Assembly: GCA_021414365.1 (NCBI GenBank)
Contig: JAIOOR010000013.1
Location: 1-64,000 of the forward strand
DNA: 64,000 nucleotides
Source of the DNA: Nitrosarchaeum sp.
GTDB taxonomy: Archaea > Thermoproteota > Nitrososphaeria > Nitrososphaerales > Nitrosopumilaceae
Direction of reading: 5' to 3'
Part shown: positions 9,943 to 14,753 of the stretch, in pieces
How the letters are laid out: the number at the start of each line of letters is the position of its first letter
How positions within the stretch are numbered: the stretch's first letter is position 1
Program-made: the position numbers and the translations under genes
Notes under the pieces: generated by a model
The model's database searches: none
Told to the model about the DNA's origin: nothing
Seen by the model: the letters and a program-made list of their open reading frames with translations, nothing else

Positions 9943-10045
9943 TTTAGTATCTTGGCATAATGCTTAGTCTTGATTTTGCAGATACTGCAATTATTGATAT
10001 AATTGCTACTGCTAGAATCATAACTGCGATTGTACCAAATTCTGG
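9943..10045. repeat. 103-bp identical repeat, copy 2 of 3 (PEFG-CTERM coding end)
   Basis: Identical to 9028-9130 and 14768-14870. Same role and orientation: the 3' end of a minus-strand PEFG-CTERM gene. Confidence 0.9.
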
Positions 10046-10798
10046 AATTACAACACCATCTTTTATTCCGACTTCAATAGAATGCTTGTATCTAGGATCT
10101 TCTCCTTGTTGAACTGTGATCTTATAATTTCCATCTTGCTTCCATAGTGGTCCACCAGTTGTAATGTCTTTTAAGAAGTTACCCTGTGTATCTATAATTG
10201 GTACAAATTGATCAACAACAACTACATTTCCATTTGGTGCCACTACTTTCAATGTGATGGAATTTGCACTATCTGTCATTCCCTTTATTGAAATTGTATT
10301 TGAACCTGCAATTGAATTTGCTTCTATGATTGTCAACCCTGTTCTCTCTACAGGTTTTGATTCAAAGGCTCCTGGTTTTTCAGTGGATTGAGTAACCTCT
10401 GTTCTTGTAGTCATACCATTGTTTACTTCCACACGAAGTGATAACTTGTATAATGAACTTCCATGTGGACTTTGTTCAACTTTAATGGTGTAAAATCCAT
10501 CTTCTTTCCACATTGAATTTGTTTTAAATTCTGTGGCAAAGTTTCCCATCATATCTGGTTTTACTTGATCAACACTAACTATGTTTTGACTTGGAGAAAT
10601 CACTGTAAATGTTACATCTGTAATTTGTGACATTGTATGTCCATTAACTGATATGGTATCAGACATTTCTGAAGATGTAGCTGAAACTGTCATTCCTGTA
10701 GTTTGAGCAAAAGCATCCTGTTGAATTGAAGTTATTGCGATTATTGACAAGGCTATTAGAGCTAATGTCATTGATGTTGTTGATCGTTTAAAATTCAT
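9944..10798 (-). CDS. secreted PEFG-CTERM protein with two Ig-like repeats, 284 aa
   Basis: I chose the ATG at 10798 (M-N-F-K-R-S) over a TTG 12 bases upstream because the signal peptide then has normal length (hydrophobic to about residue 26, then A-F-A-Q). Two related beta-sandwich repeats (about 30-125 and 150-245) each contain a V-x-x-x-S-x-T/N-x-I-S-V/I-x-G core. PEFG and helix end the protein, with the shared 103-bp repeat. It lies just outside the left inverted repeat of the transposase/HicAB island, whose outer edge is 48 bases upstream of this start. Confidence 0.85.
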   Translation of the reverse strand: MNFKRSTTSMTLALIALSIIAITSIQQDAFAQTTGMTVSATSSEMSDTISVNGHTMSQITDVTFTVISPSQNIVSVDQVKPDMMGNFATEFKTNSMWKEDGFYTIKVEQSPHGSSLYKLSLRVEVNNGMTTRTEVTQSTEKPGAFESKPVERTGLTIIEANSIAGSNTISIKGMTDSANSITLKVVAPNGNVVVVDQFVPIIDTQGNFLKDITTGGPLWKQDGNYKITVQQGEDPRYKHSIEVGIKDGVVIPEFGTIAVMILAVAIISIIAVSAKSRLSIMPRY

Positions 10799-10845
10799 TC
10801 TAATCTGCAAACGGTTGCTTGGTATTAATATATATTTTTAAAAAG

Positions 10846-10898
10846 GATTCTGTGTAATTCAGGGGAGATAATCTCTCGTGGGTAGTATCGGTAGCTGG
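10846..10898. repeat. left 53-bp inverted repeat
   Basis: Begins GATTCTGTGTAATTC and ends GGTAGCTGG. It is the reverse complement of 14053-14105 except for one A/C difference. It lies between the PEFG gene at 9944 and the 211-aa gene, so it may also contain their promoters. Confidence 0.85.
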
Positions 10899-10935
10899 TG
10901 TTGGTTAGTAAAAAAACTCTATATTCAATCTAATA

Positions 10936-11571
10936 GTGAATATGATAACGAATCCATCAAAAGAAAGAGAATCACCATTTTACGTTGCAGTGAGGTTTGC
11001 TAGATTGAGAGATCGAAGTATTGGACAAACAGATGAAATTCAGGCATTATTTGAGATATTGAATGGTTCTGAACAAATCATCCAAATGTCAAATGACGCA
11101 ATAATTAATTATGCTAAAAATCGAAAACAGCGTTCCCCTGAGTACATTCAACAAACATGTCTGGATATTATAATAAAAGTTGGAGATGGTCTTACAAAAT
11201 ACATTGACAGTAAAACAAATAGAATTTTAAAACTTCTTGATTATTTTAGACTTAGTGAACGTGATGTAAGTGAAGAAACTCAAAAACTCAAAGAATTTGA
11301 GGTTTTATGGGATGATATTAAACGAGAATATGATCGCATAAAAAATGAATTTCTATCTAGACCTATGTCAAAATATTCACTAGATACAATCAAAGAATTT
11401 AAAATTTTTCAAGAAATTATAATACAAAAAGGAATACCGCTTATGAGAAGATTAAATGATTTAGAGGATAAAATCCAAAAAGATATTGTAAATCAGATTG
11501 CATCTTTTACAAAGGCAAATACCATTATGGATTCGAATGATTTGTATAAACTTCTAACAGGTGAACCGTAA
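10936..11571 (+). CDS. hypothetical helical protein inside the island, 211 aa
   Basis: The start is GTG at 10936 or ATG at 10942. The protein is soluble, highly charged and almost wholly helical, with possible coiled coil at about residues 95-190. It has no signal, membrane segment or metal motif, and I recognise no family. It reads toward the transposase gene and ends 5 bases from that gene's end (convergent). Its position just inside the left inverted repeat makes it a cargo gene by context. A role in immunity or in regulating the element is possible but unproven. Confidence 0.7.
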   Translation: MNMITNPSKERESPFYVAVRFARLRDRSIGQTDEIQALFEILNGSEQIIQMSNDAIINYAKNRKQRSPEYIQQTCLDIIIKVGDGLTKYIDSKTNRILKLLDYFRLSERDVSEETQKLKEFEVLWDDIKREYDRIKNEFLSRPMSKYSLDTIKEFKIFQEIIIQKGIPLMRRLNDLEDKIQKDIVNQIASFTKANTIMDSNDLYKLLTGEP

Positions 11572-11576
11572 AGAAA

Positions 11577-12686
11577 CTATGTTTTTTTGGTTGCATTTTG
11601 AATTAATGTAATCCATTTATTATTACCTTCAATCTTTATTCCAGCTTTATCAGCTGGAGTTTGCCCATCTAATGCCATATGAGGTCGAATAAAATTATGA
11701 TGTATTTTCATGCCTGTGATTATTGTTGAATCTTCCTTTTTTAGACCTCTCATTACTTTTTCCCTATCACGAATTTCACCATTAAGCCTCTCCATACGAT
11801 TATTGTTAAAATCTCCTTTCAAGTGAATATGGCTGATATGGATTGAATGCGGTTTTGCTAAAGTCCTAAACTCTTTTTTATGGGCTTCTGCAAAATTTCT
11901 AGCCCCATCAGAAATTAAAACCGCTGGTCGTTTGTTTGCAATTTCTTGACTTTTTCTAAATAGTGGTCTAACATCTTCTGTGTATTTGTTGTTTGAAACT
12001 TGTGAGGCAATCCATAAACGGGTTTGGTCGTCCATCATTGCATAAAGATATTTTCTATTTCCTTTGATTTTCAGATAAATTTCATCAGTTCTCCAAGTAT
12101 CGCCTACTTGTGGTGTTATCTGTTCCAGATATTTGTCCATCAATTTGACATATTTTTTGATCCAATTTTCTATTGTCTTATGAGTGACTTTGACACCAAA
12201 TAATTTCATTGAATCTGCAACATGTCTTAATGACTCACCGTTAAAGTAGAGATTCATTGAAGCTGTAACTGATTCAGGCGTAGCCTTTAGTCTCTCAAAT
12301 CCTAAATTCATTGAGAATTTCTTGTTACAGTTTTTACATCTATACATCTGAATATCATAATTTTTGTTGTGTCTAATTCCTATTTTCTTTATTTTTTCTG
12401 ATTGGCATTTGGTACAGCAATCCATGTTTATTGGATTAATTGTTACAATTTGTTGTTCTACTTTTTGTCTAATTTTTAAGCTAATTTCCACAGAATGAAT
12501 ATGTTTACAGCAAACTTTTCTAAACTGATGATCTGGACATGAACAGGAAAGCCCTGATTCTGTAGAAATAATATCGTATTCATTGTTAGTTGATTGTGAT
12601 TTTACTTTGTAGTGGTTTGAATCAATTCTTTTGATTTGGTTGTTTTTTTCTGCTATGATTTTTCCTTTTTCTTGTCTTTGATTCAT
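11577..12686 (-). CDS. DDE transposase with SWIM zinc finger, 369 aa (IS6-like)
   Basis: The N-terminal SWIM-type finger is C-x-C (48, 50) then C-x-H (60, 62). A zinc ribbon follows with cysteines at 90/91/94 and 117/120, then a helix-turn-helix-like stretch (~150-180). The RNase-H-fold catalytic core has D201 (T-D-E-I-Y), D260 (I-S-D-G-A) and E299 (N-N-R-M-E), the IS6/IS240-type arrangement. The protein is complete, so the element may be active. The gene is divergent from the AbrB-hicBA operon across an 87-base region full of TACGTA sites, and its ATG lies inside one of these palindromes, which suggests repression. Confidence 0.88.
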   Translation of the reverse strand: MNQRQEKGKIIAEKNNQIKRIDSNHYKVKSQSTNNEYDIISTESGLSCSCPDHQFRKVCCKHIHSVEISLKIRQKVEQQIVTINPINMDCCTKCQSEKIKKIGIRHNKNYDIQMYRCKNCNKKFSMNLGFERLKATPESVTASMNLYFNGESLRHVADSMKLFGVKVTHKTIENWIKKYVKLMDKYLEQITPQVGDTWRTDEIYLKIKGNRKYLYAMMDDQTRLWIASQVSNNKYTEDVRPLFRKSQEIANKRPAVLISDGARNFAEAHKKEFRTLAKPHSIHISHIHLKGDFNNNRMERLNGEIRDREKVMRGLKKEDSTIITGMKIHHNFIRPHMALDGQTPADKAGIKIEGNNKWITLIQNATKKT

Positions 12687-12773
12687 ATCTACGTAGATAT
12701 AGTATATACGTATATAAAAATATTACGTAACTACGTAGATAATCTTTTTATACGTAGATAAAGAAATTACGTT
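12685..12773. promoter_or_regulatory. TACGTA operator array between transposase and antitoxin operon
   Basis: TACGTA occurs at 12690, 12707, 12724, 12732 and 12751, with a TACGTT at 12768. Successive spacings are 17, 17, 8, 19 and 17 bases. The first is the centre of the perfect palindrome ATATCTACGTAGATAT (12685-12700) and the second of TATATACGTATATA (12703-12716). The array covers the start codon of the transposase and ends at the ATG of the AbrB-like gene. The likely ligand is that AbrB-like protein or HicB (inference). Confidence 0.75.
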
Positions 12774-12998
12774 ATGCCAAAATGGAAAAAGGATGCTAAA
12801 GAGTTTACAGTTAGTGTAAACTTCAATGAAAGTCGTGGTTATCAAAGTTCTATACCAAAGCCTGTAATTGAAGCATTAGGTGAACCTGAAAATATTACAT
12901 TTGTGATTGATGGTAAAAGTGTGAAAATAAAGCGTGTGTCGTCAGATAGTTCTCACACTCCTTTTAAAGTAGAAAGCTCTAATAAGAGAACAAGGTGA
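12774..12998 (+). CDS. AbrB/SpoVT-type DNA-binding protein, 74 aa
   Basis: Swapped-hairpin AbrB fold: residues ~10-55 show the pattern of beta strand, Q-S-S-I-P-K-P-V-I-E-A-L-G helix, then I-T-F-V-I-D-G and a final strand. A basic tail follows. Such proteins usually act as antitoxins or autoregulators binding palindromes. The gene starts immediately after the TACGTA array and its stop overlaps the GTG of hicB (GTGA), so it is the first gene of a three-gene operon. The extra regulator in front of hicBA is unusual. Confidence 0.75.
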   Translation: MPKWKKDAKEFTVSVNFNESRGYQSSIPKPVIEALGEPENITFVIDGKSVKIKRVSSDSSHTPFKVESSNKRTR

Positions 12999-13315
12999 CG
13001 TCATACATGTCTCAATCATTTGTTATTCCACATGATCTTGAGTTACAAGATGCAGAAAAAACATCATTGAAATTCATACCTGTTGATAAAGGATTTACGG
13101 GTGCATCATCAGAAGACAAATATCTTTCTGTATTTAGAATAACTCTAAAAAAAGATGAAGATGGAAGATATGTTGCTACATGTCAGGATCTACAAGGGGT
13201 AGTAACTGATGGAAAAACTGAAGATGAAGCAATGAAAAATGCCTTTGAAGCAATACAGGCAATGCTAGAATCTATTGGTAGAAAAAGCGAACAATTTATC
13301 TTGATTCAAAACTAG
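12995..13315 (+). CDS. hicB: HicB-family antitoxin, 106 aa
   Basis: The partial-RNase-H-fold HicB domain spans about residues 43-95: strand F-R-I-T-L, then D-G-R-Y-V-A-T-C-Q-D-L, a G-x-x-T-D-G turn and the helix E-D-E-A-M-K-N-A. HicB neutralises HicA and often represses the operon. This copy has no clear DNA-binding C-terminal domain, which may be why an AbrB-like protein precedes it. The start is GTG overlapping the previous stop, with an alternative ATG at 13007. hicA follows after 7 bases. Confidence 0.82.
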   Translation: MTSYMSQSFVIPHDLELQDAEKTSLKFIPVDKGFTGASSEDKYLSVFRITLKKDEDGRYVATCQDLQGVVTDGKTEDEAMKNAFEAIQAMLESIGRKSEQFILIQN

Positions 13316-13322
13316 TTACTTT

Positions 13323-13547
13323 GTGACTAATCTTCCAGTAATTTCTTCTGATGATTTAATTAAATTTTTAACTAAAGAAAAAAAATTTGTATATGATAGA
13401 ACTCGTGGTTCTCATCATATTTTTATCTCAACAACTAAACGAGTATCTATACCTGAACGTAAAGAACTTGGAAAAGGGTTATTTCGACAAATTTTGTTAG
13501 AAATAGGTGTTAGTGAAACAGAATTTATTACATATTGGAATAGTTAA
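13323..13547 (+). CDS. hicA: HicA-family mRNA interferase toxin, 74 aa
   Basis: Small double-stranded-RNA-binding-like fold. The family's catalytic His lies in the T-R-G-S-H-H motif (H31/H32), between the N-terminal helix and the central strands; a short lysine-rich segment follows. HicA cleaves mRNA when free of HicB. The start is GTG seven bases after hicB, so the order is antitoxin then toxin, the reverse of classical hicAB but common. It is intact, so the pair could stabilise the surrounding element. Confidence 0.85.
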   Translation: MTNLPVISSDDLIKFLTKEKKFVYDRTRGSHHIFISTTKRVSIPERKELGKGLFRQILLEIGVSETEFITYWNS

Positions 13548-13589
13548 AAGTTTATGAATTACATGAAAATACCTTAAACAAGAAAAGAA

Positions 13590-14048
13590 ATGATACCTGA
13601 AGAAGAAATTATGTCCGAAATCAAAGAGATGGGTTATGTCACAATAAAACCAAGAGTTGAAAGACCCAGTTATTACAAATTGAGTGATGGGACAATCGTA
13701 AAAGCATTAGTCCATATCAACAGCATAATCGCTGACCCAAGAAATCCTGAAGGATTCAATGTTAATCCTACAAATTTAGTATCTGCATTTGTACCTAAAG
13801 AAAAGCGAAATCCTATGGGATTTCAACCACAATCACAAGGTGAGGATTTAGCACAGGGGATGATTGAACAAGATGTTGATTTTGAAGTTTTGAAAGAAGA
13901 TTTTAGCGTGTATGAATTAAGTAATAATTTGATTTTAAGTGTCAAAACAGTTGTAGGTCAAATAAGTAAAACAAAACATTACACAAAAGAAGGAGAATCA
14001 GTCTATCTAGTAAACATGAACCCAATTATCAAAGTAAAAAAAGCATAA
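13590..14048 (+). CDS. hypothetical protein at the right end of the island, 152 aa
   Basis: Soluble alpha/beta protein, ATG start, no signal or membrane segment, no cysteines. Basic residues cluster in the first 30 positions and at the C-terminus. I recognise no family. It starts 43 bases after hicA in the same direction and its stop is only 5 bases from the right inverted repeat, so it is probably part of the same transcript and cargo of the element. Confidence 0.7.
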   Translation: MIPEEEIMSEIKEMGYVTIKPRVERPSYYKLSDGTIVKALVHINSIIADPRNPEGFNVNPTNLVSAFVPKEKRNPMGFQPQSQGEDLAQGMIEQDVDFEVLKEDFSVYELSNNLILSVKTVVGQISKTKHYTKEGESVYLVNMNPIIKVKKA

Positions 14049-14052
14049 ATTT

Positions 14053-14105
14053 CCAGCTACCGATACTACCCACGAGAGATTAGCTCCCCTGAATTACACA
14101 GAATC
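14053..14105. repeat. right 53-bp inverted repeat
   Basis: Reverse complement of 10846-10898 with one mismatch. On its outer side the bases 14106-14125 (TTAAAAAGGATTCTGGGTAA) resemble the bases around 10838-10857 in direct orientation, so the right junction carries both orientations of the outer end. Confidence 0.85.
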
Positions 14106-14542
14106 TTAAAAAGGATTCTGGGTAATCAACGGGGGTTGCCCGATTTTATTGGAAAAATTTTCCTGTTTACTTCGGGGGTTTTTAGTTATTGAGTGATTTT
14201 GACTCTATTTTGATCGTAGCTGGTAGTTTCTGTCCATGTTTGCATGTTATCAATTCAGTATTGTTATGGAAAGGCAGGAATCAAAATTGAGGGGAAAACA
14301 AATGGAATACTTTGATTCAGAACGCAAGCAATCTTATCATTTCCATTCGTCACAATATAATGGCGTGTTAAAAGGAATTAATCCCATTTTTAATAGATAT
14401 TTCTCACGCACTGACACTATAATATTCACAGCATTTAGTGCATGGAATATTCATTATTCTCCTAACATCATAAAATGCACTTAACAAATAGGCTGTCTTT
14501 TTTGATCGAATTAAATATTATATTTTTATTATTCTAACAGGT
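14106..14542. other. 437-base stretch without a convincing gene
   Basis: An 82-codon open frame at 14236-14484 has no recognisable motif, irregular composition and no ribosome site, so I do not call it. The stretch is the outer flank of the island and contains G-rich runs (near 14130 and 14170). I see no RNA gene. Confidence 0.4.
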
Positions 14543-14635
14543 ATGATTCGTTGTTCAAAATGTGGTAAAATAAATATTAACTTTGGTGATAGGTGTTCTA
14601 ACTGTAATTCAAAACTTGATAAAAACAAGAAATAG
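14543..14635 (+). CDS. tiny zinc-ribbon protein, 30 aa
   Basis: The frame from ATG to TAG encodes C-S-K-C (C4, C7) and C-S-N-C (C18, C21), the two knuckles of a zinc ribbon 10 residues apart, then a lysine-rich tail. A TATA-like AT run lies just upstream. Several such micro zinc ribbons occur in this window. The function is unknown; protein or nucleic-acid binding is plausible. Confidence 0.55.
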   Translation: MIRCSKCGKININFGDRCSNCNSKLDKNKK

Positions 14636-14731
14636 AACAAGAAAATTGAACTTAAGTTGGTTTAACATCTCTATTTAACCTCTGAAAGTAAACAGTGATA
14701 ATTTTTTGAGAAGTTTGATCTAACTCCCTCA

Positions 14732-14753
14732 GATTACACAGAATCTTAAAAAG
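14732..14753. repeat. third copy of the island's outer repeat end
   Basis: GATTACACAGAATCTTAAAA followed by AG repeats the sequence at 14091-14112 apart from one substitution, and the preceding ~10 bases (CTCCC-rich) are also similar. It lies 15 bases downstream of the end of the next PEFG gene, in the same orientation relative to that gene as copies elsewhere. Confidence 0.65.

Follow-up and report, generated by a model that had tools for sequence, protein, structure and literature searches.

Organization and mobility of element 1

The window analyzed in this study, i.e., the whole stretch of 64,000 nucleotides at positions 1 to 64,000 of contig JAIOOR010000013.1 (Nitrosarchaeum sp., assembly GCA_021414365.1), contains a 3.26-kb island, referred to here as element 1, between two PEFG-CTERM genes. 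Element 1 is 3260 bp long and is framed by terminal inverted repeats, between which lie six open reading frames (ORFs) for a 211-amino-acid (aa) protein, a transposase, an AbrB-like protein, HicB, HicA, and a 152-aa protein (Table 1). An initial annotation had already placed these six ORFs between 53-bp inverted repeats with a single mismatch at 10846-10898 and 14053-14105, and both descriptions are correct. It is quite likely that element 1 is a complete passenger-carrying transposon from an archaea-wide IS6-like family that inserts at a fixed site relative to the TATA box. This reading rests on sequence comparison, which established the mobility, the family, the fixed TATA spacing, the stacking of elements, and the pairing of regulators with palindromes.

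The two repeats match at 52 of 53 positions. Their origin by chance was rejected because the second-ranked inverted repeat within 5 kb has just 27 nt at 78%, as compared with 53 nt at 98%. An exact 8-bp target duplication, TTAAAAAG, is present on both flanks and relatives hold the empty site, and element 1 is therefore regarded as mobile; the comparison thus confirms the island as real and as the single mobile unit with long inverted repeats that had been proposed. Both the duplication and the empty site, which the initial annotation had suggested looking for in Nitrosopumilus, were found, the relatives being Nitrosarchaeum instead. The empty sites also led us to reject the island as the relic of a larger element. 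A whole-genome search found no further copy of the 53-bp repeat in the same genome. The target duplication, element 2, the adjacent TATA box, and the operator palindromes between the transposase and AbrB genes had not been mentioned in the initial annotation.

Table 1. Features of element 1, element 2, and the adjoining PEFG-CTERM gene (positions in the window)
Feature	Position	Strand	Remarks
PEFG-CTERM gene targeted at its promoter	9944..10798	-	39 nt between its start codon and the target duplication
TATA-box region of the downstream PEFG gene	10825..10832	-	about 6 nt past the target duplication
Target-site duplication, copy 1	10838..10845	+	TTAAAAAG; reads CTTTTTAA on the promoter strand; empty site in relatives
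Left terminal inverted repeat, element 1	10846..10898	+	begins GATTCTGTGTAATTCAGGGG; 53 nt, 98% complementary to 14053-14105
211-aa protein	10936..11571	+	ORF; predicted all-helical at low confidence (model pLDDT 64)
IS6-like DDE transposase	11577..12686	-	369 aa; N-terminal SWIM finger and IS1/IS1595-type zinc ribbon; Pfam/NCBIfam matches
Divergent control region, predicted AbrB operators	12687..12773	.	repeated ACGT-core palindromes; ATATCTACGTAGATAT beside the transposase start
AbrB-like protein, predicted transposon regulator	12774..12998	+	74 aa; conserved divergent partner of the transposase; homologues in L040, L057, L078, and L109
HicB-like antitoxin	12995..13315	+	106 aa; GTG at 12995, alternative ATG at 13007; PF15919 26.5 vs 27 bits
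HicA toxin	13323..13547	+	74 aa; PF07927 42.5 vs 27 bits; GSHHIF motif intact
152-aa protein, third gene behind several toxin/antitoxin types	13590..14048	+	two similar halves, predicted all-beta
Right terminal inverted repeat, element 1	14053..14105	-	53-nt partner of the left repeat
Target-site duplication, copy 2	14106..14113	+	common to both elements
Element 2, decayed 632-bp relative	14114..14745	.	imperfect inverted repeats 14114-14138 and 14721-14745; abuts element 1
Transposase 3'-end remnant in element 2	14273..14327	+	matches the 3' end of the G014 transposase gene at 80% DNA identity; comparable pieces in other genomes
Target-site duplication, copy 3, far end of element 2	14746..14753	+	third TTAAAAAG

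Insertion site in the PEFG cluster

The four-gene PEFG cluster is kept across the Nitrosarchaeum relatives. The first gap of the cluster is unoccupied in five of them (G002, G006, G013, G011, and G014), where it reads ...TCTCTTTTTAAAAATATATAT..., and the order in the window is CTTTTTAA, element 2, CTTTTTAA, element 1, and CTTTTTAAAAATATATAT. The identical 8-mer was reused base-exactly elsewhere: G016 carries a 0.95-kb element there, G017, G001, and G015 carry scars of 42 to 45 bp, and G173 carries an element at CTTTTTAA with different ends (GGTTCTGTCAAGTTAG) and a reversed gene order. G173 belongs to another genus, in which the same PEFG sites were struck again. The second PEFG gap, between TTTTTTAA and ATATACAT, is also a reused site: G014 (Nitrosarchaeum sp. 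nzgw8) has an insertion of 4408 bp, G016, G017, G008, and G004 have shorter elements, and G012 has a scar. The third gap, which does not have that sequence, contains no insertion in any relative compared. At the PEFG site of Nitrosopumilus, inserts of approximately 48 bp with GATC inverted repeats were observed (L280, L281, L282, L294, L296, and L298), which are possibly scars of old elements.

Fixed spacing to the TATA box

The usual layout of the target is the 8-bp duplication, approximately 6 bp, and then TATA. All 12 of the 12 elements that are abutted on exactly one side have TTA at offsets 6 to 8 of the opposite flank. A matrix built from these 12 elements was applied unchanged to 38 others at 46 offsets on both sides; the highest score was at the offset of the training set in 15 of the 38 elements (0.8 expected) and no more than 2 nt from it in 23 (approximately 4 expected). 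A start codon lies 36 to 48 nt from the target in 16 of the 21 flanks read, which is the spacing of a leaderless archaeal promoter. The targeted promoters include those of RadA, TFB (transcription factor B), thermosome, SufB, PEFG genes, and a conserved unnamed 128-aa gene. Insertion at a constant distance ahead of archaeal TATA boxes appears to be new.

Among these promoters are repeated landing sites. The radA promoter is occupied in L304, L101, L097, L098, L070, L111, L118, L327, and L349, and a TACCGTA-N3-TACGGTA palindrome is conserved in it from TATA to the start. The 128-aa gene (MPKAGFKSITVSETVYDKF...; L143:7924-8310), which has no NCBIfam match, is the landing site in L059, L122, L088, and L254 as well.

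Stacking of elements

Another element's tip directly follows the target duplication in 14 of 74 flanks, as compared with 0.05 expected. In L304, on the complete chromosome G175, the 8-mer TGTTTCGA stands between successive members of a stack of at least three elements plus the beginning of a fourth; there are four TGTTTCGA boundaries, the last of which is at the radA TATA box, and the stacked elements differ in their end sequences. The window contains a smaller version of this arrangement, in which element 1, still intact, adjoins the PEFG TATA box and separates it from the decayed element 2. The ends of element 2 are of the same type as those of element 1 (GATTCTGGGTAATC... and the reverse complement of ...GATTACACAGAATC). 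Most simply, every insertion would regenerate the target next to the TATA box.

A segment of element 2 is 84% identical to a second place in the same genome (G000:C3:56834-56971). Orphan fragments of the last 40 to 60 codons of the transposase occur in many Nitrosarchaeum genomes (e.g., L046, L047, L048, L049, and L050), with no inverted repeats nearby; they may be products of decay or of reuse.

Transposase and its family

The domain matches support the earlier description of an IS6-like SWIM transposase that lies with HicBA cargo inside a PEFG cluster. The protein scores 64.7 bits against DDE_Tnp_IS240 (PF13610; cut-off 27 bits) and 117 bits against the NCBIfam IS6 model (NF033587; cut-off 125), as compared with 32 bits against the IS256 model; the SWIM match is borderline (19.4 vs a cut-off of 19.6 bits). 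Asp201, Asp260, and Glu299 are the putative catalytic residues.

The transposase alone, used as a query against the genome and viral contig collections, returned no relatives. With a five-sequence profile, relatives were found in 89 of 250 genomes of the same family and on 151 contig stretches from Thaumarchaeota, Methanoperedens, Bathyarchaeota, Asgard archaea, and Thermoplasmata. Five contigs of the viral collection (L299-L303) also hold relatives, which hints at spread by viruses or proviruses.

Boundaries were determined by a strict search for IS6-like tips together with an exact 8-bp repeat, with 30 chimaeras as controls. Bounded elements were obtained at 30 of 85 transposases, at 21 of the 44 that have 3 kb or more on each side, and at 0 of the 30 chimaeras. 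In total, 51 distinct bounded elements were mapped (37 plus 14 new), with sizes of 1.9 to 6.8 kb and repeats of up to 93 bp, and all 51 bear exact 8-mer duplications. L117 is doubtful as one 4.7-kb element, as it contains an IS110-type transposase. The tip is GGTTCTGT in most relatives and GATTCTGT in the window (a G-G tip with CTGT); CTGT was included in the search pattern, which biases its family-wide count, while the ends in the window and in L035 were found without it.

Passenger genes are the rule among the mapped elements and include restriction–modification genes, Fic, GmrSD, ParB, response regulators, proteasome-like proteins, and many unknowns. The inverted repeats, the transposase, and a divergent regulator are conserved from element to element, whereas the complete six-gene set, which the initial annotation had suggested checking for between repeat copies, is not. 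Proteasome-like (Ntn-hydrolase) passengers are probably recurrent, as four cargo proteins match the Pfam Proteasome family; the loci, assigned by sequence resemblance, are L057:285-1214, L075:314-1240, L082:204-1037, and L134:7263-7982.

AbrB-like putative regulator and control region

A small DNA-binding protein of the AbrB, ribbon-helix-helix (RHH), or zinc ribbon type is encoded divergently from the transposase in 34 of 37 elements, nine of these 34 regulators having served as search seeds. In element 1, this position is held by the AbrB-like protein, and the 16-bp palindrome ATATCTACGTAGATAT extends up to the start codon of the transposase. The control regions carry palindromes according to the class of regulator: an ACGT or GTAC core in 7 of 7 elements with AbrB type 1 (0 of 30 elsewhere), TAGGNACCTA in 4 of 4 with AbrB type 2 (0 of 33 elsewhere), and ATACTACT/AGTAGTAT or ACCATTAATGGT in 6 of 6 with RHH type 1 (1 of 31 elsewhere). 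Perfect palindromes of at least 16 bp are present in 7 of 37 control regions, as compared with 0.26 in shuffles. The combination of a divergent small regulator with class-specific palindromes appears to be new for such elements. AbrB is most likely the transposon's own regulator and not a part of HicBA, because elements that lack HicBA and carry different cargo also have its homologues divergent to the transposase.

HicBA and the 152-aa and 211-aa proteins

The AbrB and HicB genes overlap by 4 bp and have the same direction as the HicA gene. Against the Pfam cut-offs of 27 bits, HicA scores above and HicB narrowly below. The HicB-like protein matches HicB structures at an E value of approximately 0.001, and Pfam gave no helix-turn-helix (HTH), RHH, or other recognizable DNA-binding domain in it. 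The earlier proposal that the transposon stabilizes itself through the HicA toxin is plausible.

The two remaining proteins had been put forward as possible new components, and they fared differently: the 152-aa protein is recurrent and linked to toxin–antitoxin (TA) genes, while the 211-aa protein is almost an orphan. Homologues of the 152-aa protein are encoded in 14 of the 250 family genomes. The gene follows HicBA in L254 (62% identity), L261, and L262 and lies near HicBA in L268; PIN-type genes precede it in L264 and near L110 (Methanoperedens; 32% identity; next to an IS6-like transposase), as do Fic/Doc genes in L265 and L266. The L254 module adjoins the promoter of the 128-aa gene, with an element-like end at TTTAGAAT. 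An unnamed pair of approximately 117 and 68 aa precedes the gene in L253, L256, L259, and L103. In L253, the order AbrB-117-68-152 is divergent from the transposase, and the two middle genes thus occupy the place of HicB and HicA. The pair, always located before the 152-aa gene (L253:4966-5522, L256:5768-6303, L259:1004-1581, and L103:2341-2969), is a candidate new TA pair.

No match to the 152-aa family was found in Pfam, PHROGs, or PDB, nor to the protein of the window in NCBIfam or the plasmid collection. Its predicted structure, built from two sequences, is of moderate quality (pLDDT 68, pTM 0.57), and no solved fold was convincingly similar to the model. On the strength of its gene neighborhoods, the 152-aa protein is a recurrent, undescribed TA-linked third gene; a role as accessory antitoxin or as regulator is a guess. 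The 211-aa protein has one degraded homologue only among the 250 family genomes and no Pfam or NCBIfam match, and its low-confidence model offered no lead.

Proposed mechanism and alternative explanations

Archaeal promoters, like those of eukaryotes, use TBP and TFB. From the patterns described above, we infer tethering to the promoter complex, repression by AbrB, and addiction through HicBA, as follows. The transposase would join the ends with the inverted repeats to 8 bp of target DNA, at a constant position immediately upstream of another gene's TATA box, guided most likely by the TBP/TFB promoter complex or by the promoter DNA under that complex, and the host promoter would stay intact beside the element. 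As the 8 bp would be regenerated beside the TATA box, later elements could insert there again, such that the newest copy would lie nearest the TATA box and older copies would decay behind it. The AbrB-like protein probably acts, via shared palindromes, as a repressor of the transposase and of the passenger operon downstream (HicB, HicA, and the 152-aa protein), and HicA would penalize loss of the element. The broadest form of this proposal, i.e., a TBP/TFB-tethered archaea-wide family that stacks regulated passenger modules into self-renewing tandem arrays ahead of housekeeping promoters, with the 152-aa protein as the prototype of a new third component common to unrelated TA systems, is tentative, and we rate its chance slightly below even.

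Several observations weigh against the reading of element 1 as a member of a family with a fixed TATA-relative site. The strict search gave no boundaries at approximately half of the transposase loci with ample flanks. The best matrix score lies more than 2 nt from the training offset in 15 of the 38 test elements; some of these are PEFG sites (ATATACATAAATA), which score poorly though their TATA is equally placed, and others are unexplained. The radA, PEFG, and 128-aa promoters were each hit by several mapped elements, and the counts are thus not fully independent. The 8-mer at the far end of the neighboring element, present in L304, was not found in the other abutted loci, which have short flanks. 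The operator motifs were selected post hoc, after the sequences had been viewed.

A serious rival to guidance by the promoter complex is that the transposase itself reads an AT-rich, TATA-like target with no transcription factors, promoters being hit because the motif is present there. This is a real possibility, though we would not bet on it: direct recognition would equally produce TATA-like hexamers at a fixed offset, yet the motif at the offset is weak and variable (TTA, ATA, and ATT forms) while the start codon distances cluster as if working promoters were chosen, and AT-rich archaeal genomes have many TATA-like words outside promoters. The repeated use of the PEFG site could, on the other hand, reflect shared ancestry, with a single ancient insertion that was inherited and repeatedly rearranged or gene-converted. 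The scars at the same 8-mer in G001, G015, and G017 and the intact or decayed elements elsewhere could share one such event, which we nevertheless regard as improbable: species with the empty site are interspersed among carriers, the G173 element has different ends and the opposite gene order at the same 8-mer, the unrelated radA, TFB, and thermosome promoters show the same offset, and the stacked elements of L304 have different ends.

The remaining alternatives concern the cargo. The initial annotation treated AbrB, HicB, and HicA as one three-gene antitoxin/toxin operon. In such a system, AbrB would serve as the DNA-binding antitoxin partner, and the codirectional genes, the 4-bp overlap, and a HicB with no recognizable DNA-binding domain would suit it. 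However, AbrB homologues are divergent to the transposase where HicBA is absent (L040, L057, L078, and L109), and hicB-hicA-152aa occurs without AbrB in L254 and L261; AbrB was therefore rejected as an obligate partner of HicBA, and the three-gene system is rather unlikely. Somewhat less unlikely, though still doubtful, is a chance assemblage around an insertion sequence (IS), with passengers functionally unlinked to the transposon. The cargo does vary among elements and many passengers are unannotated; against this, the 152-aa protein recurs behind TA genes near such transposases in several lineages (L253, L110, L103, and L135), and restriction–modification, Fic, and GmrSD cargo is also present.

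Comparison with known systems and significance

Members of the IS6 (IS6/IS26) family are mostly approximately 0.8 kb long with one gene and ends of 15 to 20 bp, and one passenger-carrying member, ISDsp3, is listed (PMC7986276, PMC6807381); the membership of archaeal and long clostridial members alongside IS26 has been doubted (PMC6807381). The elements described here resemble IS6 in a DDE domain nearest the IS6 model, the 8-bp target duplication, the GG..CTGT tips, an N-terminal zinc finger as in IS6 clades h/i, and small derivatives resembling miniature inverted-repeat transposable elements (MITEs). They differ in their length of 1.9 to 6.8 kb, ends of up to 93 bp, the N-terminal SWIM motif, the divergent regulator, the multigene cargo, and the fixed TATA spacing; element 1, with 53-bp repeats, 3260 bp, and six ORFs, does not have the IS6 format of 15- to 20-bp repeats, approximately 0.8 kb, and a single gene.

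TnGBS, ISLre2, and ISKra4 elements (p-MULT 3 and 4) insert 15 to 17 bp upstream of sigma-A promoters (PMC3942029). Both groups keep a fixed distance upstream of the core promoter (here approximately 14 bp from the inverted-repeat end to TATA) and are found in both orientations when the ends are symmetrical. However, the TnGBS-type elements have bacterial Mutator-like (p-MULT) transposases and sigma-A promoters, whereas the present family has an IS6-like transposase, archaeal TATA boxes, and tandem stacking. By analogy, TnGBS-type elements are a close functional parallel with an unrelated transposase, the promoter types being analogous and not homologous.

The HicAB cargo resembles type II systems in the intact GSHHIF motif of HicA and the partial RNase-H-like domain of HicB; it differs in that HicB has no recognizable HTH/RHH domain and that the 152-aa gene follows as a third gene. 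Core promoters are chosen by position in yeast transposons (Ty3) and in a few bacterial families. A survey of thaumarchaeal mobile elements describes ISs of one to two genes, and the IS-like transposons in Nitrosopumilaceae are a point of likeness; it yielded no passage on AbrB, HicBA cargo, or TATA targeting (PMC6563490). Within the literature searched, which comprised open-licence papers, we found no report of an archaeal transposon that chooses core promoters by position, no description of a TATA-spaced archaeal transposon family, and no described element that matches the combination in element 1, in agreement with the initial annotation on the last point.

If the proposed reading is true, it would show how archaea accumulate toxin–antitoxin, restriction, and signaling genes before essential genes. 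The TATA-spaced family would be a testable system for transcription-factor-guided transposition; it may also provide a genetic tool for archaea without such tools, and it adds a new candidate TA component.

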